From Bryum argenteum (Eukaryota > Streptophyta > Bryopsida > Bryales > Bryaceae): DNA of 64,000 nucleotides. Below the pieces are notes generated by a model. That model searched no databases. It was not told the DNA's origin and saw nothing but the letters and a program-made list of their open reading frames with translations. This document shows, in pieces, positions 32,934 through 59,102 of this stretch. The translations under genes and the position numbers were made by a program. Position 1 is the stretch's first letter, and the number at the start of each line of letters is the position of its first letter. The stretch covers positions 5,877,409-5,941,408 of the forward strand of contig CM073328.1 of NCBI GenBank assembly GCA_037043015.1, in the 5' to 3' direction.

Positions 32934-34666
32934 GGAGTTTCTCTTCTTTTTCTAAGTTTCTTCACTATGCAATTTGTAGTTATTGAACTGATAATAAAAG
33001 TCAATTTTGTTTCTATAATTGGAGATTCTATTCTATTTTTGGAACTCCTTTACTTTTCTAGTAAAATAGTCCACTCGATGGTGGGGGTTTATTACATCAT
33101 CGTAATGGTCAAAGTTGGCTAAACTTTTTCCATGCATAACTCCAAAAAGCTATCTTGGTTTTCGGGGCAGTATAAAATTATATAATTATTCAAATAAAAA
33201 TTTGCTCTATCCAGGTACTTGTAAACTACAGAACTTTACTGGATTGCAACAACTCTTTTTAAATACCCACTTTATCTGACGTGTCGACTGAATGGTGACC
33301 TGTCAGGATTGATCTGAACTTCTGACAGTCTAGCTGGCATGGATAAGGACAAACTTCTGTCCTGTGGGGGACTGGGGGGGAGTCCTTTTTTTGAATTTAT
33401 TGCCTTTTCAATGTTCATCCCCAGATGCAGGGCCTAATTTGGGGGACGCTAATTTAGTGTATCTTCAAACGTATTTTGATACGGAGTTACAGTGTTTGGT
33501 AATGTAGTGCACATATAACGCACGTTTTACATGGGGATTCAAGCCGTGCATGGGACCAGTAAAAATCTTCTCAACGTGATTGGTTCATTCTTGGAATTAC
33601 AAGAAATGAATCAATCACGTTGAGAGGATTTTTGCAGTCCTTTGGAGTGATGCACGACTTGACTGTCTACGTAAAGCGTCCGTAACATAAAGATTTTACA
33701 ATTTATTTTTTTCCATTTTTAGGAAGTGCTTTTTGAGTACAAGGCCAACTTTACATTACAAACGAGAAGCCTCCCCCTAAACTCTCATGTGGGCCCTAGT
33801 CTATACTTGGGGGTCAGTGCTTAAGAAGGGATGGCCTTTGGGTGTGTGTGAAGTGTGAAAGACAAAAGTTCCCATGTAAATTTTTTTTTCTTGAAATGTT
33901 TTTTAAATAGAATAAATGATTGGTAGAGGTTTTCAGATGAACGGCTCCTTAGGTAAATAGCTAAGCCCATTCTATTGTGGTAGGCTTAATTAGAATTCTG
34001 GGGGCCCTCATCAATGTGCACTTGTGTTGTTAGGGAGGAAACAAGTGTTGTCCATGTTATTCTTTTCTCTTTTTGTCCCTTGGACTCAAATTTGTAATTG
34101 TAAAACTCCAATTCTCTCCCTTTTTGTTTTTTGAGCCTCCCTTCGGCTCAAAAGTATTTTCTCTTAGCTTCTTGCTTCCCAGTGTAAAGCACTCCTTAGG
34201 TAGAAATACCAAAGTAACCTTAAATGTTTTGTTGTGGTGTTGACAGTATGATCCAAAAAAAAATGCAAAAGTTCCTTGCCAAGTAGCATGCTACTCTAGT
34301 TCATGATTTTATTTCTATCAAATGATTAATACATTAATTGGTTGAAAGAAAAGAAAATAAAAGAAATTAAACCATAAAAATGTGGAAGCAAACAATGTGG
34401 AAGTTGTTTGGCAATGAATTGCTTACCTTTGGGCTACTTTATTTTAAAGCCCACTTGATCCAAGGCCCATTTGAACTTGAGCCTATTTGGAGTTAGAGTG
34501 TGCTTTGACTTAAACCTTAATTTACAAAGTGGGCCATCCAATATAATAAAGTTTATAAACCCACTTTTAGGGCTTGCATAGAAATTTTTATTTCAAAGCG
34601 GGCTTTTCAAATGGGCTTCGGTGACTTTATATCAAGGCCCATTTTTGAGAGCTCAAAACTAAGCGA

Positions 34667-35237
34667 ATGACCCCTAAATGAGAAGTTGGATCACAACCAA
34701 TTTTTTTGACAAGGGCCTAAATATTTTCCTCTAAAACGCCGCTACCTCACCCGCCACGTAAGTTTTGGGAGAAGTTTGCCGACTCTCGGTATGAAGCCTT
34801 GGGCCCATACTAAGGCCCGTTTGGATGATTTAAGCACTATCAATGGTCAACCCCATTTTTTAAACTTTTTTTCAAAATTTTTCATAGTTTGAGATCTAGG
34901 AATTTTTCCATTTTATTTTTCTTCTCAAAATTCACAAACTCAAAAAGGCCCCTACTCATAGTTCAACATCTTTTCAAAAATTAAATATATCTTAGGTGGT
35001 GCGTGTTTTCTCTATATCATTGATTCTAAACATTCTACTAGAAAACAATTTTGCATGAAGGTCAAGAACGCCAAATGATTCTCTAAAATTTTGCACAAGC
35101 ATACCAACTTGATAATCAAAATGGAAAATAAATATGACCAAGCCGGTTGGAATAGCAATCTTCAAAGTTTCACTTTACATCATGAGACAATGTCTCATAA
35201 CCAATGCCCAAACAACACAAGAAATTTTAGGGGTTAA
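34667..35237. mobile_element. TTAA-family element, worn copy
   Basis: A start near CCCCTAAATG (34671) and an end AGGGG-TTAA (35230-35237) enclose interior sequence shared with 28982-29919 (for example GGTCAA and TTTTGCA blocks). The left TTAA is lost. Confidence 0.55.
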
Positions 35238-35969
35238 TGCCTAAGGTTTGAATATAGGCCCTAATATAAAGTGGCCCTTAGAGCTTTGCCACATCTGATC
35301 ATGGAGATTCCATACTACGTGCCGCTTTGGGGTTATGTGCCATGAATAAATAAGGTGTCCACTTATTCCTACATTAATGCTTTCCAAGAATGAGTGAGTC
35401 TCCATAGCTCCATAACAAAGCCAAAATGGACATAAGAAGGCACTTAATTATCACGGAGATGATAAATTTTGGGGCAGGCCTAAGAGCGGGCTGGGCATCA
35501 TAGTTGATAACCATTCTTAGTGGAAGACCAAATTAAGTATGTTTCAACGATTATTAATTCGTTAGAATATTTTTAAGTGAAGTTGAAGGGTCTTACGCAT
35601 GAGGATTTTGGTCCTTGGCTGACCTCATGGCTTTGAGCCTTGGTGCTCCATACAAACATATTACTGCCCCATGCCAAACTTTTCTTCCAAAATTTTTTAG
35701 GTCACTCCTCGAAACAACAAATGACATTTAAGGATTGAAAATTTGGATTTGCGTGATTTTAACCTCTTCAATTTTGCTCATTTCGGAGTTGCTCTCGGCC
35801 CTTGCTTTTTTCCCGTCTAGTCTTGCTTCTTCTTCGAAACTACATAGCGGGAACACCTATTCTTTGCGGAGCGAATTCTATGTAAGAGAGGTTTGAAAAG
35901 AAGTTGCAACATCTGCTTCCATTTGGAAGCATTGAGTTCTTTTGGCGATCTCGTAAGCGACATATCACC

Positions 35970-37819
35970 ATGGCGATCTCCGATGTGAGGTAACTATAAT
36001 CTTCCTCACCTCCTATATTGAATTCGATTAGTATTGCGGAAACTAAGGGAATAACCTCTTTTGCTTCTTTTTCACTTTTAGGTTAAGAGAGGCGTACTTT
36101 GTTAGTAGAACACATCAACTTGAAAATACTCTTTTACATTATGAAAAAGTTGGCCTCTAACTTAGTAGATTTTTCAAATGCTTGATTTGCAGGTCTTCGT
36201 TAAGGACAATGTTGGTCAACACCATAATTGGTTATCTTGCGACGATGCTCGGGGTAACAATGGAAAGTAGTGACAATGAAATTGACGTTGTCGCTAACCC
36301 CATAGGTGTACGGCCAACACACTCGGAAAATTCCACAACAGTTACAATTGAGAATTGCAGGTACGTTCCGTCGATGACAATTATTTTAAACAAACAGTAC
36401 TTACTTTGTTAAATAATTACTAAAAGATGACACTTTGTGCGATTTCCTTTTGGAGAGCAAACTTGTAGTAGTAATTCTTCTAGGTGTATATAGGGTACAG
36501 TTTTGTATATATTTACTATTTCTTTTTCAATTTTGTATATATGTACTATTTCTTTTTCATGCATTGAACGTAGGAACATCATTTTAAACAAGTTGTGAGC
36601 AGTCCTCCATGTTTCCCACTTTGTAATGTAATACATTGAGGTTGTAGAATTTAAGGGGAATGGCGGTGCACGATAAATGATAAATTATAAGATTTCTATG
36701 TACTATATTGACCTTAAATCATCTTTCAAGACTCACCCTCTATGTGAGTCTAGTCATAATCCTTTTCTTATGACTTGCAATTGACACCATATATATTAAA
36801 CTACTTTTTTACAGGTTTTTCTATGAAGATGAGGATGCATCAGAAGCGAATCCTTTTATAGCAGGAGGTTGTCATTGCATCAGTGACCAGAGCTACGGGC
36901 ACAAATCATGTTTGATACGGTGGTTTCGAATGAGGCTCGGGCGCTCACTTGAAAACACTTGTGAGGTGTGCAAGTAAGTTCTTCCATCCATTTCTCCATA
37001 TGGAATTTTCAAATAACCATGTAAGATAAGTTTTTGTTCTAAGCTGTTGATACCGTAAACTTTTGTGTAAGCTTTTGCAGGGGGCTTCTTGGAAGGACTT
37101 TACAATCATTGCTTCTTGAGAAACATATTCAAGATTTGCCTCTAGGAAACAAGATGCCATCGGGGTTAATCCTCCTTCAAGTTCCAATTGAAGATCTTGA
37201 TCGTCTCCAAGTTCCATTTGACACTCCACCCTTCGACTCGCTTGATGATGACACACAAGAGGCCATTAAAGAGATATTGGACTCGCAATACAAGAAACAC
37301 AAAGCTCAAGTCAAAGCTCGTGGTGAAGCCGTTGTGGAGATGGTAAGTAGGGCTGATTATCATCTTCATGTTAGCCAAGTGCGACGTGCATGCGAGTTGT
37401 TGGAGGAGTATATTGAGATGGTGGTTGTTGAACAATCACATCCTCCTTACGAATATGCATTTTTTCCTCGCAATGGAGATCCTCCCAATATCAAGATAGT
37501 TGAGTATACCCAGAGAGAAGATGTTCTACGCATTCCAGCAACATCAAGTGTAGAAGGTGCCGTGAATGCACTTTCTCAAGAGCTTGTTCTCAACGTTTTT
37601 TATGTTCTCTTTTACATGTTGGGGAGTGAACAACTTATACTCCTTCCTCGTTCGATGATTGTGGACGGTGTTTATACTGACAGAGTTGGAGGATCTTCTC
37701 TTCTTGCACCTTTGGGTGGAGTTGAGGGTGGAAGTTCTAGGCGACAGACTACCTATGGCATTTACCGAATGTTTTCTCTAGCATTGTGGCCTAGTGTTTG
37801 GAGGGGATCACGTGTTTAG
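35970..37819 (+). CDS. RING-CH family gene 1; second zinc ligand replaced by Phe
   Basis: Exons: 35970-35989, 36193-36360, 36815-36973, 37081-37819; all GT-AG, giving 361 aa with no stop. RING-CH (C4HC3) domains are E3 ubiquitin ligase domains of MARCH-type proteins. Here the domain spans residues 62-115. It keeps C62, GCHC, YGHKSC and CEVC, but where copy 2 has CRIC this copy reads CRFF, so one metal ligand is missing and activity is doubtful. The C-terminal ~245 residues (LLQVPIEDLDRLQVP, YAFFPRNGDPPNIK, LILLPRSMIVDGVY) are conserved among the three copies and not recognised. No membrane helices are obvious, unlike many MARCH proteins. Confidence 0.82.
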
Positions 37820-38633
37820 TCGTTACTATGGAGTATGCAAGAGGGCAAGATGCAACAACTTAGTTGTGCAATCTGAGTAGAATAAGGGTTGTTTCTTTGA
37901 TAACAAGCCACGACCTTTGCAATAAATGAGAATCATGTCAACATCTACATGATCTTCTTTTTGGAGTTATGAGATTTTGAGTTGTTGAAATCATCTTGTA
38001 AGTAATGAATGAGCTGTTTTTCATTGATTGTATTTTTCTCTTTTTATTTTTGGAATTTAGTTTAAATGATGGATCATTGTTAAGTTATGTTTTTGTGTAC
38101 TGCTACGTAATTTTCCAGTTTTGGTATTCCTTGGAGGTTTATCCCTTCACAAGTTTATCAATTTACATGCTGATATTTGGTTTACTTTAACGATGGCATC
38201 ACTAAGCATAGAGTTTTGAAACATTGGAGGTTTAGGCAACAAAGAACCAATGTAGTATCCGTTGTTGTGGTTCATGAACAAAGTTCTCTTATCAAGTTTT
38301 ATGGATTGTGAACCACAATGTTGCAGAGATTTGTGGTGCATGGTGATATTGATAAACTTTATGTGAATTCTTGCAATAAATTATTGTACTATCATTTAAA
38401 GTGTATCATTTCTAATTGTTCCATTATGCATTTTCCGTGGGATTGGTTGGGGAACCAATATGAGGTTCTAATTGCCGCCTTGTTACAAGAGTTGCTTATT
38501 ATTTGTCAACTTTGTATCCACACCAATGCTCAATGTTTGATATACATTCGCAAGAGAGTTGGGACAAAAGTTCTGTTGAAATAGCCTTCATTCATTTGAA
38601 TAAATTGGAGAGAATTTTAAGGTGCCATCATTG

Positions 38634-38944: not shown

Positions 38945-40045
38945 CTCAATCAATAAAAAATGACTTGTTCATTGCAGCTAATCCATTTTCCACAATTTTT
39001 TGCACTTAAAGAGCACATGCATTAGTATGCATGGTTAGTGACATGCTAAAATAATGTTGTTATAAAAGAAGCCACATTATTTTACACTATGTTCAAGCAT
39101 TTGGATTTACAAAATGAATTCACTAATGAGACTAGAATGTTTTATATAACTTTAATACTATGGTTTTTAATTCTAAAGTTAGCTAATTTGATAACATATA
39201 TTTGAATATAATTAGTTAAAACTTAAAAGTGAGTAATGGCCCTTGATTGATAGTGTAAAGGGACCCTAATACACCACTTTGCACAAATGGAGGCAAATCT
39301 CAATCAATATCTCAATCAATCAATATCAATAATGACTTGTTCATTGCAACTTATCCAATTTCTATAACTTTTTGAAGTTTAAAAGCACATGCACTAGTAT
39401 GCATGGTTAGTGATATGCTAAAATAATGTTGTTATAAAAGAAGCCACATTATTTTACACTATGTTCAATCATTTGGATTTACAAAATGAATTCACTAATG
39501 AGACTAGAATGTTTTATATAACTTTAATACTATGGTTTTTAATTCTAAAGTTAGCTAATTCGATAACATATATTTGAATATAATTAGTTAAAACTTAAAA
39601 GTGAGTAATGGCCCTTGATTGATAGTGTAAAGGGACCCTAATATACCACTTTGCACAAATGGAGGCATAGCTCAATCAATATCTCAATCAATCAATATCA
39701 ATAATAACTTGTTCATTGCAACTTATCCAATTTCTATAACTTTTTGAAGTTTAAAAGCATATGCACTAGTATGCATGGTTAGTGATATGCTAAAATAATG
39801 TTGTTATAAAAGAAGCGACATTATTTACACTATGTTCAATCATTTGGATTTACAAAATGTGATTCACTAATCAACCGTAAATGTATTATAACACTTTAAT
39901 ACTTTGGGTTTAAAATCTTAGAATTAGCTAATTCGATAACAAATAGTAGAATAATAGTCAATAATGGGTAATGGCCCTTGGATGATAGTGTAAAGGGACC
40001 CTAAAAATTTTACAAGAATACACCCCTTTGCACAAATGGGGACCT
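38945..40045. repeat. Three tandem units of 372 bp
   Basis: Units start at TGACTTGTTCATTGCA-like sequence at 38961, 39333 and 39705, exactly 372 bp apart. The first two are nearly identical; the third drifts in its second half. Each unit contains AAAGGGACCCTAA near its end. There are no coding frames. Confidence 0.9.
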
Positions 40046-42798: not shown

Positions 42799-43074
42799 GG
42801 AAGAACAAGCTTTTGCCTTGTGTGGGGGGGGGTCTTTTATTGAATTTATTGCCTCTTCAATGTTCATCCCCACATGCTGGGCCTAATTTGGGGGATGCTA
42901 ATTTGGTGTATTTTCAAATGTAACGAGTAATAGTGTTTCATAATCTAGTGCACATATAACGGACATTTTACATGGGGAGTCAAGCCGTGTATGGGACCGA
43001 AGGACGGCAAAATCCTCTCAATGTGATTGGTCCATTCTTTGAAATGTTTTGCAGTCCTTTGGTCTGATGCACTA

Positions 43075-43289
43075 CACTAAATAGGTAGATTAGTGTTAGA
43101 TTTTTATAAGATTTGAAAATGCTATAAGTTTTTACTTATGTTACAAAAATTACCAGGAGTATTGACTCCAATACTCTGGAAGGATCCACATCTTGACAGA
43201 TGTAGAGGGTAAAAATATTGACCAACAGTAAAAACTTATAACATGTTTATATAAATTAGTGTATCTAACACTAATCTACCTATTTAGTG
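43075..43289. mobile_element. Young inverted-repeat mini-element with TA target duplication (215 bp)
   Basis: Perfect 27-bp terminal inverted repeats begin CACTAAATAGGTAGATTAG. TA flanks both sides. Removing the element plus one TA gives a sequence that aligns without a gap to the empty paralogous site near 33645-33670 (GATGCAC-GA-CTTGACT), which fixes the target duplication as TA (Tc1/mariner-like). Confidence 0.85.
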
Positions 43290-44142
43290 TACTTGACTCT
43301 CCATGTAAAGCGTCCTTAATATAAGAATTTCATATTTCGTTTCCATTATGGGAAGTATTTTTGATTATTAGGCGCGCTTTACATTACAAATGAGAAGCCT
43401 TCCGCTAAACTCCATTTGGACCTAAGTCTATACTTGAGGATCACTACTTAAGAAGGCATGGCCTTGGGGTGTAGTGTGAAGTGAGAGAAAGACGCAAGCT
43501 CCCATGTGGACCTTTTTTCCTGAAATGCTTTTTAAATAGAATAAATGATTCGTGGAGGTTTTTTAGACAAATGGCTCCCTAGATTAATATCTAAGCCCAT
43601 CTCATTGAGATAGGCTTAACTGGGATTGTTGGGGCCCCCATCATTGTGTACTTTTGTTGCCGGGGAGGAAAAAAATGTTGTCCATGTTAACTTTTTCTCT
43701 TCTTGTCCCTTGGACTCAAATTTGCAAGTGTAAAACCCCATTTTTTTGGCTTTTTAATTTCTAAGCCTCCCTTTGGCTCAAAGTATTTTCTCTTAACTTC
43801 TCGCTTCTAGTGTAAAGCGCCCCTTAGGTAGAAATATCAAAGTGACCATAAATGTTTTGTTGTAGTGTGTGGTTGCTATTATGATCCAAAAAAATGCAAA
43901 AGTTTCTTGCCAAGTAGCATGTTGCTTCGGTTCATAATTGTAATTCTCTCAAATGATTAATACATTAATATGTTTCATAAAAAGAATAAAATATAAAGAT
44001 GTGCTAGCACACAATGTGGAAGTTGTTTAGCAATGAATTATCTACCTTTGGTTTACTTTATAATACACTCCACTTGACCCAAGGCCCATTTAAACTTGAG
44101 CCCATATCAAGGCCCATTTTGGTGAATAGAGCACTATGGGTT

Positions 44143-44680
44143 AATCCCTAAAGAGTAAAGATCCTTCAAAGTCAAAATGGGTAGTTGGGATTTTGGGCAA
44201 CCTACTTGAAGGGGCTAAAAATGATATCGCTTAACATTTTTACGTGCTCCCTATACTCCAAAGTGTATGTGGTAAAACTTGCGAAGCCAAATTTCAAATT
44301 TCAAACCTTCATTTAGAAATATTAGTTTTCAAGTTTTAAATAGACAAATTATATTTAGACATTTGATTTATTTATTTTCTAGAAACATATTCAAAACCAA
44401 ACTACTACTCAAGCTCCAAAGTGACTCAAGTCAAAAAATTTACAAATTTTACAAAGGCAACCTCCAAAAACAATCCAAAAAAAAGTTAGGTTTTTTTTTT
44501 TTTTTTTTTTCGTAAAAATTCACAAACTCACAAAGGCACCTACTCACCATTCAAAAAATAAATATAACCGATGTGGTTTTTTGATATCATTGTTTGTAAA
44601 CCTCCTTATAGAAAAAAATTCTGCATGAAGGTCAAATAATCCAACTCATTCTCTAAAATGTTGCGTGGAAATTCTATACA
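44143..44680. mobile_element. TTAA-family element, truncated
   Basis: It starts GGGTTAATCCCTAAAGAG, and its interior aligns to 28982-29919. The right end is missing. Confidence 0.5.
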
Positions 44681-45332
44681 ACATGAGCTATGTGCCATGA
44701 ATAAATAAGGTGTCCACCTATTCCTACATTAATGCTTATCGAGGATGAGTAAGTCCCCAAAATGGACATATGAAGGCACTTAATCATCAAGGGGATGATA
44801 AATTTTTGGGCATGCCTAAGAGCAGGCTAGGCATCTTAATTGATAACCATTCTTAGTGGTAAATCAAATTAAGTATGTTTGAACATTCATTAACTCGTTA
44901 GAATATTTCTAAGTGAAATTGAAGGGTATATATATAAGGGTTTTGGTCCTTGGGTTGACCTTGTGGCTTTGAGCCTTGATGCTTCATACAAACATATTAC
45001 TGCCCTAGCCAAAAGATTCCTTCAAACTTTTCTAGGTAGCTCGTCGAAACGACAAATGACATTTAAGGATTGAGAATTTGGATTTGCGTGTTTTTAACAT
45101 CTTTGGATTTGCGTGTTTTTAACATCTTTGGATTTGCTCATTTAGGAGTTGCTCTCAACCCTTGCTTTTTTTCTTCCGTCTAATCTACTTCTTCTTCTTC
45201 AAAACTTCGTAGAGGGAACACCTATTCTTTGCGGAGCCGATTTTATTTCACGATTTGAGAAGAAGGTGCAACACCTGCTTCCATTTGGAAGAATTGAGTT
45301 GTTTTGGCGTTGTAGTAAGCGGAGATATCACC

Positions 45333-47202
45333 ATGGCGATCTTCGATGTCAGGTAATTATAATCTTCTCCACCTCCTCTGTTGAATTCGATTAGCACAAA
45401 GGAAACTAAGGGGATTATCTCTCTTGCTTCTTTTTCACTTTTAGGTTTATAGAGGGATACTTTGTTAATAGAACATATTAACTAGGAAAAACTCTTTTAC
45501 ATTATGTGAAATCTGGCCTCTAACTTAGTAGGTTACTCAAATGCTTCATTTGCAGGTCTTCGATGAAGACAATTATGGTCAATATGATAATTGCCTATCT
45601 TGCGAAGGTGTCCGCAGTAACAACGGAAAGTAGAGACGATGCAGTTGAAGATGTCCCGAACCCCATACGTGAGGAAGTTGAAGATGTCGCAAACCCCATA
45701 TGTGCGGGGCCGACACACTTGCAAAGAGCTCTTACAATTGCAAATTGCAGGTAAGTTACGTTGAGGACAATTATTTTAACCATAGGATAGTTTGTTAAAT
45801 ACTAAAGATGGAAAAGTTGTGCTTTTTACTTATTACCTGGTTCGACCAAGGGTCTCATGGAGAGCAAACTTGTAGTAGTAACTCTCTTAGGTGTACATGC
45901 GGTATAATTTTGTATGTTTTTACTATTTCAGTTTCATGTGTTGAAAGTAGAATATCATTTTACACAAGCTCTAAGGACTCCTCAATTTTTCCCACATTGC
46001 AATGTAATACATTGCGGTTGTGGAAGTTAAGGTGAAAAGCGATACACAGTAAATTGTAAATTGTAAATTATAAGATTTCTATGTACTATATTGATCTAAA
46101 ATCATCTTTCAATACTCACCCTTAAAGTGACTTCAGTCATAAACCCTATTCTTATAAATTGCAATTTTTACCATATATGTTGGACCACATTTTTACAGGA
46201 TTTGCTTCGGAGATGAGGATGCATCAGAAGTGGATCCTTTTATTGCAGTAGGATGTCGTTGCATGGGTGACATGAGCTATGGGCACAAATCATGTTTGAT
46301 ACAATGGTTTCGAAGGAGGCTCGTGCGCTTACTTGAAAATACTTGCGAGGTGTGCAAGTAAGTTCTCACATCCATTTCTCTAAATGAAACTTTCAATAAC
46401 AAATAATGTAAACTCTCAAATAATCATGTAACATAGGTTTTTGGACTTTGTGGATAACATAAACTTTTGTGTATGTTCTTGCAGGGGGCTCCTCGGTAGG
46501 ACTTTACAATCAACTCTTCTTCAAAGACACATTCAAGATTTGCCTGTGGAGGGAAGCATGCCATCGGAGTTGATCCTCCTTCAAGTTCCAATTGAAGATC
46601 TTGATCGCCTCCAAGTTCCAATTGACACTCCACCATTCGACGCGCTCGATGATGACACACAAGAGGCCATTGAAGAGATATTGAACTCGCAGTACAAGAA
46701 ACACAAAGCTCAAATCAAAGCTCGTGGTGAAGCCGTTGTAGAGATGGTAAGTAGGGCTGATTATCGTCTTGAAGTTAGCCAAGTGCGACGAGGATGCGAG
46801 TTGTTGGACGAGTATATTGAGATGGTGGTTGTTGAACAACCAAAACCTTTTGATCAATATGCATTTTTCCCTCGCAATGGAGATCCTCCCAATATCAAAA
46901 TAGTTCAGTATACAGAGAGCGAAGATGTTCTACAAGTTCCAGCAGCATCAAGTGTAGAAGGTGCCGTGAATGCACTTTCTGAAGAGCTTGTTCTCAACGT
47001 TTTCAATGTGCTTGTTTACATGTCGGGGACTGAACAACTTATACTCCTTCCTCGTTCGATGATTGTGGACGCCATTTATATCGACGGAGCCGCAAGAGAA
47101 GGATCTTCTTCTCTTGCACCTTTGGATGGAGTTGAGGGTGGGATTTCCAGGCGTCAGATTACCTATGGCATTTATCGAATGTTTCCCCTAGCATTGTTGT
47201 GA
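45333..47202 (+). CDS. RING-CH (C4HC3) zinc-finger gene 2, intact, 363 aa
   Basis: Exons: 45333-45352 (20 nt, MAIFDVR), 45556-45750, 46199-46357, 46485-47202. All borders are GT-AG and the total is an exact multiple of three. The zinc ligands are complete: C71-R-I-C74, then 16 residues, GCRC, 7 residues, H-x2-C (GHKSC), 16 residues, CEVC at 121-124. These spacings fit RING-CH and not a PHD finger. RING-CH proteins recruit E2 enzymes to ubiquitylate targets. The C-terminal ~238 residues (LILLQVPIEDLDRLQV, YAFFPRNGDPPNIK, LILLPRSMIVDAIY) form an unrecognised conserved domain without clear membrane helices. The start is supported by conservation of the 20-nt first exon in all three copies. Confidence 0.88.
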
Positions 47203-48090
47203 CTATGTGGTTAGAAAGGATCACCTATTTAGTGTGACTTTGTGGTTGGGAAGGATCACCTACTTAGTGCTTATTATGTAGTTTGCAACATGAAGATGCA
47301 AGAGCTTAGTTGTGCAAGAGTAGAATTAAGGTTGTTTTTTGAATCACAAGTCATGATTTTTGCAATAAATGGGAAACATGTCAACATCAACATGATTGAT
47401 CTTCCTTTTGGAGTTATCAAATTTGCAGTTGTTAAAATCATCTTGTAAACGGTGAAAGAGACGTTTTTCATTGATTGTATATTTCTCGTTTCATTTATGG
47501 GATTTAATCTAAATGATGGATCATTCCTAAGTATGGTTTTTGCATATTTCCCCGTGTTTTTGCAATTTTGGTCTTCTTTGCAGGTGTATGACTTCACAAG
47601 TTCATCGATTCCCAAGCTTATATTTGGTTTATTTTGAGGATGGTGTCATGGAGCATAGAGCTTTAAAACATTGGAGGTTTAGGCAGTAAAGAATCTGAAC
47701 GTAGAATTTCTTGTTGTGTTTTATGAATGGGGTTCTCTCATTGTGTTTTATGGATTGTGAATCACAATGTTCAAGAGATTTGTGGTACATGGTATCGATG
47801 AACTTTATGTGAAACTCTTGCAATAAATTATTGTACTTTTGTCTGAAGTGCTTCAATTTAGATCGTCACAAATTTTTCATAAGGCATTTTTTGTGGAATT
47901 GGTTGGGCAACCAATATGAGGTTCTAAGTGCTGCCTTGCTACAAGATTTTACTTGTTATTTGTGAGCTTCATACGTGGCTTATGCTTAGTGTTTGATATA
48001 CATTTGCAAGAGAGTTGAGACAAAAGTTTTATTGAATTAGCCTTTATTTGTTTGAGTACATTGGGGTGCATTTTAGGGTGCCACCATTTT

Positions 48091-49433: not shown

Positions 49434-49727
49434 CACTAATAGAAATTGGCAAAAAAGTGACGGCCGTAATGACTTGACCGAAATGACACATAGTGTCAAT
49501 TTTAATTGTGCTTCTAATAACGTCAAAATAAATAATTATTCCTTAATTTTTTTACTTACCAGTCTATTAGAGTGTGGTATGCTTATTACAACCAAAAAAA
49601 ATCTAAGAAAAAGTGACAAATATCATAATTTATTTTGATGTTATTAGAAGCACAATTAAAACTGACACTTTGTGTCATTCCGGTCAAGTCATTACGGCTG
49701 TCACTTTTTTGCCATTTTCTACTAGTG
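49434..49727. mobile_element. CACTA-type mini-element (294 bp), 3-bp target duplication AAA
   Basis: The ends are CACTAATAGAAA and TTTCTACTAGTG, with AAA on both sides. Inverted similarity extends over about 95 bp per side (AGTGACGGCCGTAATGACTT and its complement), so nearly the whole element is a hairpin. Confidence 0.88.
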
Positions 49728-50029
49728 AAACAAGAGTCGTTCAGTAATCTTATGCTCAAGGCATTGTTGGTATTTTGTTCTCCCTATCCGGCGTGAATTA
49801 TGGGTCAATCTACCTATCTCCTAAGTTAGCTTATTTGGGAGATCCGATGTGGCTTGTATGTTTTGTTCTTTATTCACTTTTCAAATTTTAGTGATGTAAA
49901 TAATGGAGAGTCATATTGTAGTCACATGATATCAACAACTTCAATTCCTTCATTGTTAGAATCCGACGTGGATCCTCTATTTTCTAATTTTTTTATGCTA
50001 AATATTATTTCTAGCACATACTATGGTTT
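49728..50029. other. AT-rich intergenic, nothing recognised
   Basis: No gene or element end seen between the CACTA mini-element and the left arm of the inverted duplication. Confidence 0.5.
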
Positions 50030-50592
50030 GTTTTGTTTTATTTTGTCAGTGACATCATGATCTTGGGGACAAACTGTTGGATCGGTGCGAATAAGGTATC
50101 ATTGGAAGGAAGTTTTTTTGTAGAGGTGTGGTCAATGATCAGTACGCAAAAGAGGTTGATGAAGTTTGAGATATTAAATTTCCAAGTAATTATGACCCCC
50201 AAATCACCAAAAATTACAAAAATGACCTAATTTTAAATATAACACAAAAATAAGATGGGCATGGCCAAAGTATTCCAGTGAGTGTGACGACGCCATATGA
50301 GCATACAAGTATATTCTAGGTGTACATTTACTTGCTCAAACAATACTTTATATCAACTTATCACATTTTTAAAGTCCGACCTTCAACCAATCACATTTAT
50401 CGTGATTGGTAACCGATCGTCTCGAATGGTGACCAAGTCATCTACACACCATCTTAAACCAACCCTTAGATAACTCTTCAAACAATATTATGTACATTGA
50501 ACTTGAGTTTGCATGTGCTCCACTCATTCATTCAGCAAACGAAATGTTGCCATCTTAGAAGTTCCATGGTGAAAGGACGGATGTGGAACACT

Positions 50593-50599
50593 ATATAAC
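50593..50599 (+). promoter_or_regulatory. TATA box of the left-arm gene
   Basis: TATATAA lies 69 bp upstream of the ATG at 50668; the same spacing and context occur in the right arm. Confidence 0.65.
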
Positions 50600-50667
50600 T
50601 TGCGATCAAATCCTCATTCTTTCACGTTCACCGTCTCTCTCATCGTGCACTATCGTTGTTACTCACC

Positions 50668-51947
50668 ATGTTTCTCTTGGTTTCTTCCGATGCAACACTC
50701 ACGGTCTTGGCTGATGATCTCTTAACAGCCAGAACACTTGCTGAAGACAACCTCGCCGATCTCAGAACGTCCTACCCACAAGAGGCGGACCTGGACGATG
50801 GAGATAGAAGCCATAGCCTACTTCACAAGCTTATGTCGGACTTCTTCATCATGCTTCAGCACGGCGACATTCCATTGTCCACCACCGCTAGCACCCAGGA
50901 CCCGGATTACTGGGTCCTCCGGGGTGCAATGGAGGAACACGATGTCTGGCTTGTTGAATACTCAGCACGAGAGAAGGAGATAAAGAGGCAGCTTGAGGAA
51001 TTACGTTTCGGTGTCACCTGCCTTGCGGACTCTGTCAAGAGCTTCTCCAAACCAGGTAGGAGCCTCATCTCAAGTTTCAGTCAGTTCTTGCAAATGGCTC
51101 AAGCTGAGCGTAACTATGTGCAGTAGTTCTAGTGGTTGTACTATGTTTTGCTGATGCAGATAGTCGGGTGCAACAACTGGAGAGGAGAAGCAATGCCATC
51201 AACCACATTCGTGAATTCGAAGCACACGACGATCGAAGACCTAAGGAGGCGTATTGATGTGATAGGTGGCGATCTCATCCGCCTTGAGAAAGAAGCATAT
51301 CGCCTTGATACATCAACTAGCGAATTCGCTCTTCCTTCTGAAAAGAGCCATCCCACACCGGCAAGTAGCAGCGGTACATTAATTCTACCCTGAGCCTCCG
51401 CAAGTTCCTTCTGTGCCGCAAAGTATGAAGTTAGCTGGATTCAGTGCTTGTAACATGAGTAAGTATTGATTTTTTCATGGTGCAGATGATGGGGAGAAAG
51501 AAAAGAGCACGATCGAGAAAATGTGGCTTGGGTTCTTAGCACAAAAGCATCAGGAAACAAGGGTGTTCCTTGAAAATTTAAGTGACAAGCCCATGAGAGA
51601 TGAGTTATCTCGCCTCCATACTGAAGTATCTCACGCTCCTACAGCGGAGGAAATAAGGAATCTGTCGAGAGACTTCCCATTGCAGGTAGATGTTCAGTCG
51701 GTTTCTTTCCTGTTGTTGTTTGCAAGCTTCGCATGAGTTTCTTCTAAGATGAGTGACACTCTTTTCCTTTTGCAGAAACTTGGGTCAAACAAGAGGAGAA
51801 GGAATGAGTACGTTCACCGGAGCGCAGATCAACGTGCTTAAGTATTTAGTAGCAGACCATGAGGAGATAAAGGGGCTTCTCAAGAAACGAATAAGCGATT
51901 CCATCCGCTTCAAGAAGAATGGGTTACCTTGCCGTAATACTGAGTAG
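50668..51947 (+). pseudogene. Coiled-coil protein gene, left-arm copy, decayed
   Basis: Exons correspond to 50668-51055, 51160-51365, 51486-51686 and 51776-51947. Compared with the right-arm copy, exon 2 has a 4-base insertion (after GCACACGACGA) and exon 3 is about 8 bases longer (around ACAGCGGAGGAA). Both shift the frame, so the normal C-terminus (LVADHEEIKGLLKKRISDS) is read only in another frame. Exon 1 (MFLLVSSDATLTVLADDLL, YSAREKEIKRQLEELR) is intact and could make a truncated product. No family is recognised. Confidence 0.75.
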
Positions 51948-52432
51948 CACCCAAGGACTCTGTCAAGAGCTTTTCCACACCAAGTAGTAGTTTATTCTTG
52001 AGTTTCTTGAAGCCGGTTTTCTTTTTTTGTTACTGCAAAAGAAAGAAAAAGAGTTGATCATCTCTAGATTCGATTGATGGAAAAAGTGTTACTTGTTGGA
52101 GATAGTTGGGTCCAAGAAGAGGAGATAAAAGCTCGTTTGCACAAGATTGTCGATACAAGACAAGAGATTATACCTAGTGGCAATTTAGATGGTGTTGCTT
52201 AAGGGTTTTGAGAAATAGACGTTCATGTATATAGAGATGATGATCATCTTGGAACTTTGTACATTTTTGTGAATACATTTTTTGACTTGATTTTGTGCAA
52301 GTAACCTGAGATATTGTTGTTTCAAGTTTCGTCTAAAAATAATGTTAAAAAGAAATCATGGTATTTTCATGGGATTTCGACATTTTGTTGCCTATCATCC
52401 TGAGGTCATTCAAGGTGAGATCTAGATGCTAT

Positions 52433-53565
52433 TTTTCTTGACCAATTCTACTACTATATTTTTTTTCACAATATTAGCGCATCAAAGGAGGGTTTGAGTT
52501 CGCATAATCTTATACAACAGTAACGAGCCACTGATATAAACAAGCACCGCCCAAAATGCCGGTGTAGAATCCTTATTACATGATTTACATCACTACCAAT
52601 GTTGTGCACCAAATGATTGTGTGACCATCAATATTTTTCTAGCGATAATTGTAGAATCGATGGTTTTTTTGGTTCTACATCTATGTCATACTTGGCGTCT
52701 TTGTTCAATGCATTATCAACTGAAAGTATCATTTCCAGACATGCCTAGATCGAGGTAAGTATGGCCCTTGATGTAAGCAAACCTGCAGCTCTTAGAAACC
52801 ACCGCCTCGCCTTCGACAAACCTGAAGCTCGCTTGAGAATCCATCGCCATAGATATTTTTTATAAAGTTTTATACAAACTTATAGGTTGTAAAGGATTAA
52901 CGAGAAGGTGAGAATATTCTTAATCATAAGTTAAATGTAGTTATTATGATAAGGTGTCCACAATTTAACCCGACATATCCTCCAAGTCATTTATACTACT
53001 AACAAAAAAGAATCCTGTCTCTTAACAATATGGTTACTTGGTTAATCAATAATTTCATTTCACCTAATCACATATTAAGAGTCCCACCTTCAAAGGATCA
53101 CATTTCTCTTTATCATGACAAGTCGATTGCACAACAACCTTTTAAACTTTTCAAGAAATACTACACTAAATTTCATTCAAGGTATCACTAGGACTTATAG
53201 TTACAAAGGGTTCAATACAAGGTGAGTCCAACCTATATCAAAAGCTATAAAAAGTTGTGAAGATAAGCTTTCAAGAGTTTAATCCTACATTTTATCTCAC
53301 TCATGATGTACACTACCATTTGAAGTAGGATAATTTTTATTTTTCAAATTGAGGTTACCGAGGACCAATCAAATTTTAAAAGTTCCACCTTCAATCTCTT
53401 GTTATTGGTCGTCATCACCCAAAAAGTGTAAACTCACTCTTAGATATCTATGAGAATATCTAAGAGATATTCTCAAACAATGTTATACTAAACTATAGTT
53501 TGCATGTGTACCAGTGCTCACTCATTTCATTTACCCAATGACATGCCACATTTTATAAGTTGCAT
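52433..53565. other. Spacer of the inverted duplication, left part
   Basis: AT-rich; no gene or element end recognised. Confidence 0.5.
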
Positions 53566-57231: not shown

Positions 57232-57489
57232 CTAGTATGCCCACACGGCGTTGCCACACTCACTGAAATACTTTGGTCATGTTCTTGTTTTTGTGCTATA
57301 TTTAAATATAGGTCATTTTTGTAATTTTTGGTAATTTGGGGGTCATAATTACTTGGATATTTAATATCTCCGGATTTGTTAACCTGTTTTGCGATCTGAT
57401 CATTGTCCACATGTTTACAAAAAACTTCCTTGAGCGACAACTCATGTGCCCGGACCAACAGTTGGTCCACAAGATCATGATGCCATTGA

Positions 57490-57528
<39 letters not shown>

Positions 57529-58975
57529 AAGACAAACAAACTGAAGTACTTGCCTTAAATAATAGACTAGTATGCCCACACCGTGTTGTCATACCTGCTT
57601 AAATACTTTGACCATGCCCTTCTTGTTTTTCTGCTAGATCTAAAATTAGGTCATTTTTGTAATTTTTGGTGATTTGGGGGCCATAATTACATAGAAATCT
57701 CTTGATCCTTCAACCCGTTTTGCAATTTGATTGTTGTCTGCATCTCCATATACTATTTTTGTTATAACATAGACTAGTACGTTCCTGCGGCATTGTCGCG
57801 CTCATACGAATAATTTCTGATATTTCTGATAATTTCTGATATTTCAGCACCATGAATACTTTGAAATTCAATTTCTTGGGATCACCCGACACAATTTTTG
57901 ATCCAATTGTTGCCAAGCACTCCTATGTAAAATTTCCAATGACACCTCATGCCCCATCCGACCGACGGTATGCGAGATCATAATGTCACTCCCAAAACAA
58001 ACTACATGCCTTAAGTGATAGACTAATATGCCCCTGTGACGTTGTGACGCACCTTACTTAACTTTTTTACCGTGCCTCTATTGTTTATTCTACTGAATCT
58101 ATAATTAGGTTATGTTTGTAATTTTTTGGCAATTTAGGGCCATAAATACTCTAAAATTCAATATCTCAAGACTCGTCGACTTGTTTTGTGATTATTTTTC
58201 ACAACTCTACAAAAGAATCCCCTTCCAACAACATCTCATACCTCCTGAACCAAGTAACCGGCTATCCCCCATATCATAGTGTCACAAAACAAAACAAAAC
58301 AAAACAAATCAAAGCAAAGAAACTAGGTCTTAAATAATAGACTAGTATGGCTCCACTGTTGCCACACACATTTTATTTTTAGTATTGATCATGTAGCTCC
58401 AAACAATGCGATTCTTGCGTGGTTGAGTTCTCTTGTTTTTCACCTAGATCTATTATTATGTCAACTTTGTAATTTGTGGTGATTTGGGGGCCATAAATAC
58501 TTCAAAATTCAATATCATGGGATCTGTCAACCTATTTAGCTATCTGATTGTATTTCACAACTCTGCAAAATAATCTGCTTCCAACAACACCTCATGCGGC
58601 CCGATCTGATCGGTGGTCCCCCACATTCAAATGTTACCCAAAAAAAAAGAAAAAAAAAAAAAAAAATTAATAATAATAATAATATATTAATACCTTAATT
58701 AATAGATTATGTTGCTCCAAAACATGTGATTTTACGTGGTTGGGTTTTCATGTTTTCATTCTAGATCTAAAACTAGGTCATTTTTGTATTTTTGGTGATT
58801 TGGGGGCCATAATAACTTGAAAATTTAATATTTCGGGATCCGTTGACGTGTTTCATGATCCAATTGTTTTCTTCATTTCAACGAAAAAATTTTCTTCCAA
58901 GTACACCTCATGCGCGATGTTCTGACGTGCGGTTTCCAAGATCATACAAACAAACTACTTGCCTTATATAATAAA
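57232..58975 (-). mobile_element. Head-to-tail array of six short Helitron-like units
   Basis: Read on the minus strand, units run 58975-58707, 58706-58342, 58341-58023, 58022-57774, 57773-57567 and 57566-57232. Each begins TCTATTATTTAAGG-like (TTTATTATATAAGG in the first) and ends with a hairpin region (GTGCGGCAACGCCGCAC-like) then GGGCATACTAG-like. At each junction the 3' CTAG is followed directly by the next TC with no spacer; two junctions have drifted ends (TTAG, ATAA). Interiors share GTCATTTTTGTAATTTTTGG (plus strand). Another 3' end at 58976 shows a further, truncated unit. No Rep/helicase is present. Confidence 0.78.
57491..57527. repeat. 37-bp A run (T run on the unit's own strand)
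   Basis: It lies inside the last unit of the array. The left arm has only TTTTGTTTTATTTTG in the equivalent place, so the run expanded after the duplication. Confidence 0.95.
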
Positions 58976-59030
58976 CTAGTATCATAGCTCACCGCGTTGC
59001 TATGGATATATTGTCAAGTTTTTTATACTT

Positions 59031-59102
59031 AAGTAAGTTACTATAAAAATAATTAGATGTCTCATCTTTTGAAATAAATTTTTTATAGTAACTTACTCAC
59101 TT
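59031..59102. mobile_element. Tiny palindromic MITE-like hairpin (~72 bp)
   Basis: AAGTAAGTTACTATAAAAA pairs with TTTTTATAGTAACTTACT-like sequence across a short loop, with CACTT closing near 59102. Too short to classify. Confidence 0.55.

Follow-up and report, generated by a model that had tools for sequence, protein, structure and literature searches.

The 64,000-nucleotide stretch of the Bryum argenteum genome analysed here, referred to as the window, contains a row of short Helitron-like units that follow one another head to tail with no host base between them. The question raised by this locus is whether joins of this kind are left by one event, such as rolling-circle replication past the terminator or tandem expansion of a single copy, or by separate insertions that happened to choose the same base. 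The structure of the array, the flanks and joins of its relatives throughout the genome, and the kinship of joined neighbours were used to decide between these origins, and together they favour successive independent insertions.

Structure of the array

Reading the letters of the window gave six head-to-tail units on the minus strand, extending from position 58975 to 57232 without spacer; because CTAG is a palindrome, the strand is easily misread. The units are 207-365 bp in length and show 57-77% pairwise identity, so that the homogeneous repeat units of a satellite-like array were not found. The array was absent from the Tandem Repeats Finder output for the window, probably because its pairwise identity is just 57-77%. 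The six abutting units described in the earlier note are real, as is their description as mini-Helitrons with TC...CTAG ends joined without spacer. From their sequence the units are classed as non-autonomous Helitrons, since they start with TC, end with CTAG, in line with the CTRR end of Helitrons, and are inserted between A and T.

All six units, named A to F from 5' to 3', lie on the minus strand. Unit A (58707..58975, 269 bp) starts with TTTATTATATAAGG and has a type II body without the last ~48 nt, designated IItr. Unit B (58342..58706, 365 bp) carries a type II 3' end (..GGAGCTACATGATCAATACT..GAGCCATACTAG), and its TC start follows ACATAA rather than CTAG. Unit C (58023..58341, 319 bp) ends in TTAG and has a type I-like 3' end, a call with a score barely over the threshold, and unit D (57774..58022, 249 bp) has a type III 3' end (..GAAATTATTCGTATGAGCG..CGTACTAG) and was placed in the tree with other type III units. 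Unit E (57567..57773, 207 bp) has a type I 3' end and lacks most of the first 110 positions; it retains TCTAT at its 5' end, and its match to the family profile otherwise begins at position 114. The 3'-most unit, F (57232..57566, 335 bp), is of type I, and its CTAG is followed by a host T (TATATTCG). The end types therefore read IItr-II-I-III-I-I from 5' to 3'. All units but A have retained a 3' end, which makes five of six, and A|B is the only join in the window without an inner 3' end.

The claim that CTAG is directly joined to TC held in part. The B|C, D|E and E|F joins are exact CTAG|TC, but of the other two internal joins C|D reads TTAG|TC and A|B has no CTAG (ACATAA|TCTATT), and unit A starts with TT rather than TC. 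Immediately upstream of unit A, at 58979-58976, lies the CTAG of a seventh 3' end, and the array therefore extends past 58975. This upstream Helitron end (58976..59097, minus strand) is of type IV (..TTTTTATAGTAACTTACTTAAGTATA..CATAGCAACGCGGTGAGCTATGATACTAG); no 5' end was found for it. The outer 3' flank of the array is a host T, and for the window array just this 3' T is visible. For the hairpin expected in Helitrons some 10-12 nt before the 3' end, folding gave weak support: the last 40 nt of the units can be folded, with z-scores between -2.5 and +0.4 for the six window ends, the best score being that of unit C, where 6 of 200 shuffles folded equally well. Three open reading frames of the window gave no Pfam match at an E value of 0.1.

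Distribution of the family in the genome

The units belong to a family of short elements dispersed over the 259-Mb genome, with several 3' end types (I, II, III and IV) on one kind of body. Exact TCTATTATTTAAGG starts occur 125 times in the genome and once in a reversed control, and ends of the form CAACN6-9GSCATACTAG occur 128 times as against 7 in the control; these counts cover near-consensus ends, about three quarters of all such ends, because the closing code excludes A. The 16-base join GCATACTAGTCTATTA, allowing at most one mismatch, had 95 matches in the genome and 5 for the reversed control, and is therefore commoner than expected by chance. Among 100 listed 5' ends, 36 lie directly behind a 3' end resembling CATACTAG (with up to 2 of 8 mismatches) and 8 behind a GAGCTACATAA-like stretch, which is the ACATAA|TC join type; the base before the remaining 56 listed perfect 5' ends is A in 48, T in 6, C in 2 and G in none. 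At the other end, T follows 92 among 100 listed 3' ends, and a 5' end, scored at up to 5 of 15 mismatches, begins directly after 30 of these 100, for which the chance expectation is 0.00135.

Both outer ends were readable by the chosen criteria in 32 of the 138 groups of the fetched set. The base before these outer 5' ends is A in 27, T in 2, G in 2 and C in 1, and T follows 30 of the 32 outer 3' ends. Empty sites were recovered for 3 of 16 arrays (L005, L101 and L128, all other than the window array), the joined host flanks of which match uninterrupted sequence elsewhere at 76-81% identity. When 40 of 1405 candidates were scored, there were at least 11 such join-spanning places for L005, at least 4 for L101 and at least 1 for L128. 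In these arrays, as in Helitrons, there is no target duplication and the empty site equals the joined flanks.

At loci chosen without regard to joins, two or more head-to-tail units were present in 24 of 32 groups (29 loci found by the whole array or unit B) and in 10 of 21 groups (20 loci taken from 47 unit F matches), with a CTAG|TC-type join in 18 and 5 groups, respectively. Since multi-unit groups are this frequent at join-blind loci, the window array represents a long but typical case.

Three observations on individual places were made in passing. C1, which at 44.1 Mb is about one sixth of the genome, holds 2 of the 125 perfect 5' ends and 4 of the 128 3' ends, counts that are complete as C1 stands first in the sorted lists, and the family seems to be depleted there. 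Both host flanks of array L006 are found again 13 kb away, at C3:20166973-20167937, where they enclose ~812 bp (C3:20167053-20167865); this is probably a second copy of the locus that carries a different stack. At locus L075, the 3' flank after CTAG is TGCCTTAATGATAGACTAGT. Read on the opposite strand it is close to a CTAG-joined 5' end, and it is possibly the trace of two family members in opposite orientation.

Probable stacked insertion at one A|T site

We consider the array to be the product of successive independent insertions of several Helitron subfamilies, stacked at one A|T site, with a probability of roughly 0.78. A first non-autonomous Helitron would insert between a host A and T, and by doing so would recreate A|T(C) at its own 5' end. 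The next copy would land at the A|T(C) of the resident, its CTAG would abut the resident TC with a spacer of zero, and repeated insertion would give A[TC..CTAG][TC..CTAG]T. In the window, the subfamilies stacked in this way would be those with end types I, II and III. Zero-spacer joins are compatible with independent insertion because the A|T(C) target is recreated at the resident 5' end. The earlier note had reasoned that each join between independently inserted copies should show host bases or an A|T context, which overlooks that a newcomer placed between a host A and a resident T leaves no spacer. The outer flanks A|TC and CTAG|T, the near-independence of joined neighbours described below and the recurrence of the joins throughout the genome are all observed here, and we infer in addition that the transposase is attracted by resident ends.

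A more tentative suggestion, which we rate at somewhat less than even odds, is that copies of this Helitron family land by preference at the 5' end of a resident copy. The transposase might nick the resident at A|TC, as for the start of transposition, and use that nick as its target, in which case copies of any subfamily would accumulate at the resident 5' end. The suggestion draws on the finding that about a third of the sampled ends are joined and that the joins are seemingly independent, whereas random choice among AT dinucleotides, of which there are ~ten million in the genome by our own estimate, would be expected to produce almost none.

The ACATAA|TC join

The join between units A and B belongs to a separate, recurrent join type, ACATAA|TC, which falls outside the CTAG|TC rule. 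It is conceivable, although we would not rate it an even chance, that a type II copy inserted into a resident type II element at an internal ACATAA|TCAATACT, the doubled 48-nt tails collapsing later, or that a dimer without an inner terminator has been spreading as a unit. This would account for the recurrence of the join, which was seen at 8 among 100 listed 5' ends and, when scored loosely, in 16 of the 158 neighbouring pairs in the kinship set, and the internal ACATAA|TCAATACT site has the form A|TC. The first (upstream) partners of such joins are closer to one another (0.265) than to their own second partner (0.296), and the listed 3' end at C3:7027711 is followed by TCACTACTAAAA, which is near the type II tail and looks like a candidate uncollapsed insertion. 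Against these points, a doubled tail was present in none of the 117 sequences of the set, and co-spread of the partners was not significant (Mantel r 0.17, P 0.18). A spreading dimer would resemble the arrays with many 5' ends and one 3' end that are ascribed to Xiong et al. 2016 in PMC12628747.

Side of growth and the solitary relative of unit F

The letters of the join are identical for growth on the 5' side, at AT, and on the 3' side, at GT. We tentatively infer growth on the 5' side, with the canonical AT as its target. In support of this, not one of the 56 non-joined 5' ends in the list has a G before it, though 2 of the 32 outer 5' ends do, and the resident 5' end is AT-rich (11 of 14 bases), resembling the AT-rich targets reported for Helraiser in PMC4778049. 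Independent insertion on the 3' side, with each newcomer entering at G|T after a resident CTAG, would give a join of identical sequence and is one of two possibilities put forward by Du et al. 2008 (PMC2267711), who also describe maize lines that have the 5' element only. The two outer 5' ends preceded by G keep some room for G|T targets. We nevertheless regard insertion on the 3' side as unlikely, given the absence of G before the non-joined perfect 5' ends and the fact that the unit shared with a duplicated locus is the 3'-most one, F.

That duplicated locus contains a solitary relative of unit F at 50001..50307 on the plus strand, which is 81% identical to F and has the same host 3' flank, with no other unit adjoining it. 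Its match to the family profile runs from position 3 and is preceded by A's (..GCTAAA|TATTATTT); its TC has therefore been lost or changed. The host segment that follows (50308..52441, plus strand) is an inverted duplicate, together with F, of the copy at 57231-55093 on the minus strand, and the two are 91.6% identical outside F. Taken as a whole, the inverted duplication (50027-52441, plus, and 57508-55093, minus) is 88% identical, with 91.6% outside the Helitron and 81% within it. Units A to E are absent from the solitary twin and the 3' flank is common to F and the twin, which fits F as the founding unit of the array. The duplication is no proof that A to E were added later, because the 5' flank of the twin was not found beyond the array in the window, nor near it among hits elsewhere. 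Homology of the duplicated loci ends at the 5' end of F, and a breakpoint at F, or loss of A to E, is a possible alternative to their later addition. When the upstream 1.4 kb served as the query, matches to a high-copy palindromic repeat overwhelmed the search, and the nearest 263 bp returned dispersed relatives alone.

The outer edge of the inverted duplication (50027-52441 and 57508-55093) is the 5' end of Helitron unit F, and an open frame with no Pfam match is present on both sides. It is possible that the duplication represents read-through carriage of a gene. A joined-flank test for read-through carriage of the 2.4-kb segment into the palindromic repeat gave no hits beside those places.

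Growth on the 5' side leads to the expectation of younger 5' units, and such a trend was weak (Wilcoxon P 0.03, 0.14 and 0.10 for three age measures) and disappeared after adjustment for end type (P 0.63), so that an age gradient was rejected as proof of 5' growth. In the window, divergence from the type consensus is 0.153, 0.180, 0.204, 0.217, 0.120 (the short unit E) and 0.223 from 5' to 3', a series that was given no weight because the types differ in mean divergence. No clear before/after cases were obtained via flank patterns for multi-copy hosts.

Relatedness of joined units

Kinship was analysed in 296 units annotated in 117 sequences, namely 116 loci and the window. The loci had been gathered by the whole array, the join pattern, units B and F and hand-picked ends, and form a non-random set to which the test is internal. 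Mates at CTAG|TC-type joins had a mean distance of 0.309, based on the 79 of 92 such joins with enough shared columns, compared with 0.319 between arrays, and joined mates were on average at the 44th percentile of all distances. In none of 158 tests did a mate prove to be the nearest relative (~0.7 such cases expected by chance). The positive control concerned the nearest relative in another array, which had the same end type as the unit itself in 116 of 177 cases (0.66, against 0.29 expected), and the distances therefore carry subfamily signal. Where the end types on both sides of a join were known, they were equal at 20 of 53 joins, with 17.1 expected if they were independent (P 0.21).

A slight excess of kin was present within arrays. 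In a first, smaller set the within-array distance was 0.305 as against 0.317, a difference reached in 8 of 1000 permutations, and the nearest relative was in the unit's own array in 3 of 97 cases where 1.6 were expected; in the larger set, 7.6% of mates were in the closest 5% of distances. This excess is far below that of arrays made in one event and leaves room for a few local duplications. En-bloc copying of joined pairs was not detected among 77 joins, either in the partner distances (r 0.10, P 0.10) or in the number of joins close in both halves (one pair, with 1.06 expected).

The aligned units and tree that the earlier note had called for spoke against a single origin. In a tree of 62 rows, some of them selected for being near relatives, a single clade of the six window units was rejected (lnL 111 lower, p-AU 2e-5), and with the five usable window units among 45 random rows the clade had p 0.004. 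The 62-row tree placed D with type III units (96/88) and A near type IItr units, while B and C fell within a group of 24 rows (99/97) to which most type II rows belong, and F formed a clade with its solitary twin (99/95). Clade tests were made for 20 of the 28 arrays with at least three usable units, the window included; none was a clade in the best tree, and the clade was rejected at p<0.05 for 9 of the 20 and not for the other 11. A quick 185-row tree was too noisy to be of use, since the tree constrained for the six units outscored the free one (p 0.70).

These results bear on the two origins put forward in the earlier note, a rolling-circle concatemer and tandem expansion of one copy. In a concatemer, the terminator would have been passed and several turns of one circle would have integrated together. 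The zero-spacer TC-CTAG junctions are those of Helitron circles, according to PMC4778049, plant arrays are so described in PMC12628747 after Xiong et al. 2016, many having several 5' ends and one 3' end, and mates are slightly closer than random. Turns of one circle are expected to be identical at birth and to have one 3' end, however, and neither mates that are closest relatives nor a single 3' end type per array, or several 5' ends with one 3' end, were found: types I, II and III are mixed in one array, and five of the six window units have a 3' end of their own. A concatemer is accordingly very improbable for the array. Tandem expansion by unequal crossing-over or slippage, followed by divergence, is just as improbable, for although no joined pair was found to be closer than E and F (0.216), the clade of these two is compatible with the 62-row tree (p-AU 0.29) and an array consisting entirely of type III units, L028, has a clade p-AU of 0.33, both E (0.185) and F (0.200, to its solitary twin) have nearer relatives outside the array, the clade of all six was rejected, and unequal exchange inside units would place breakpoints anywhere rather than at TC and CTAG. 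Both origins were thus rejected for the array as a whole, on the absence of nearest mates, the mixture of end types and the rejection of the clade, and successive independent insertion is the reading retained. Local duplication is still conceivable for E and F by themselves, and for arrays made up entirely of type III units, as L028 is.

Comparison with known Helitron arrays

Stacking is a known habit of Helitrons that has rarely been counted. Du et al. 2008 (PMC2267711) describe a pair of maize Helitrons that lie side by side at r1 and meet in a CTAG|TC join, which they read as consecutive insertions, naming the AT made of the host A and the resident T as a possible target; the same source reports that Pritham and Feschotte argued against independent insertion at such joins, as the earlier note did. 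The maize pair has the same direct junction of CTAG on TC (the G/T junction) and partners of different content, but it is one pair of gene-carrying elements, whereas the present case is a family of short elements in which as many as six are stacked and about a third of the sampled ends are joined, with tree tests in addition. Consecutive insertion with a CTAG|TC join (one maize pair, PMC2267711) and a preference for the vicinity of Helitrons (maize) are thus already known.

The description of such arrays as seldom documented in plants needs correction, since Xiong, Dooner and Du 2016 are reported in PMC12628747 to have detected many tandem arrays of truncated Helitrons across 27 plant genomes. 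Those are likewise head-to-tail plant Helitron arrays, and the ones with several 5' ends and one 3' end resemble the ACATAA|TC joins. They differ in that they are described there as made from one element by rolling-circle replication, and many of them as having a single 3' end, while in the window five of six units have their own 3' end and the units come from different subfamilies. Yang and Bennetzen 2009 reported that Helitrons of maize lie near or inside other Helitrons (as cited in PMC12477314 and PMC3288121), and nested Helitrons with several termini are described in PMC3288121; the preference for Helitron vicinity and the several termini are shared with the present family, in which the position is exact to the base. 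Dimers of Drosophila transposable elements formed by double insertion, mainly from insertion-site preference (McGurk and Barbash 2018, as related in PMC12628747), have the same main source but concern other elements and another host. Mothra, a non-autonomous rice Helitron, is described in PMC4683698 as having TC..CTAG ends, a high copy number and tandem repeats, but these repeats are inside an element of 1.25-2.74 kb, whereas here each repeat has its own ends. A family-wide count of CTAG|TC joins, or a tree test of them, was not seen in the open-access literature that was searched, most subscription papers being outside its scope.

Head-to-tail CTAG|TC joins have previously been taken as traces of tandem repeats made by rolling-circle replication. 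Those of this family look like the outcome of separate insertions that recurred at one exact base, and the joins alone are therefore no evidence for multimeric transposition products. Satellite-like arrays can, on this reading, be built without amplification. The family also provides many natural cases in which to study target choice by a rolling-circle transposase, and the use of the start nick as a target.

Other repeats in the window

Three further repeats were noted in the window. A high-copy palindromic (MITE-like) element is located at 49434-49730, and ~40 scored places match it, most of them on both strands. A direct duplication of ~5 kb in pieces, 78-81% identical, links 33345-38632 with 42801-48088, and between its two parts, at 38946-40004, lies a tandem array of a 372-bp unit with 2.9 copies and 91% matches.
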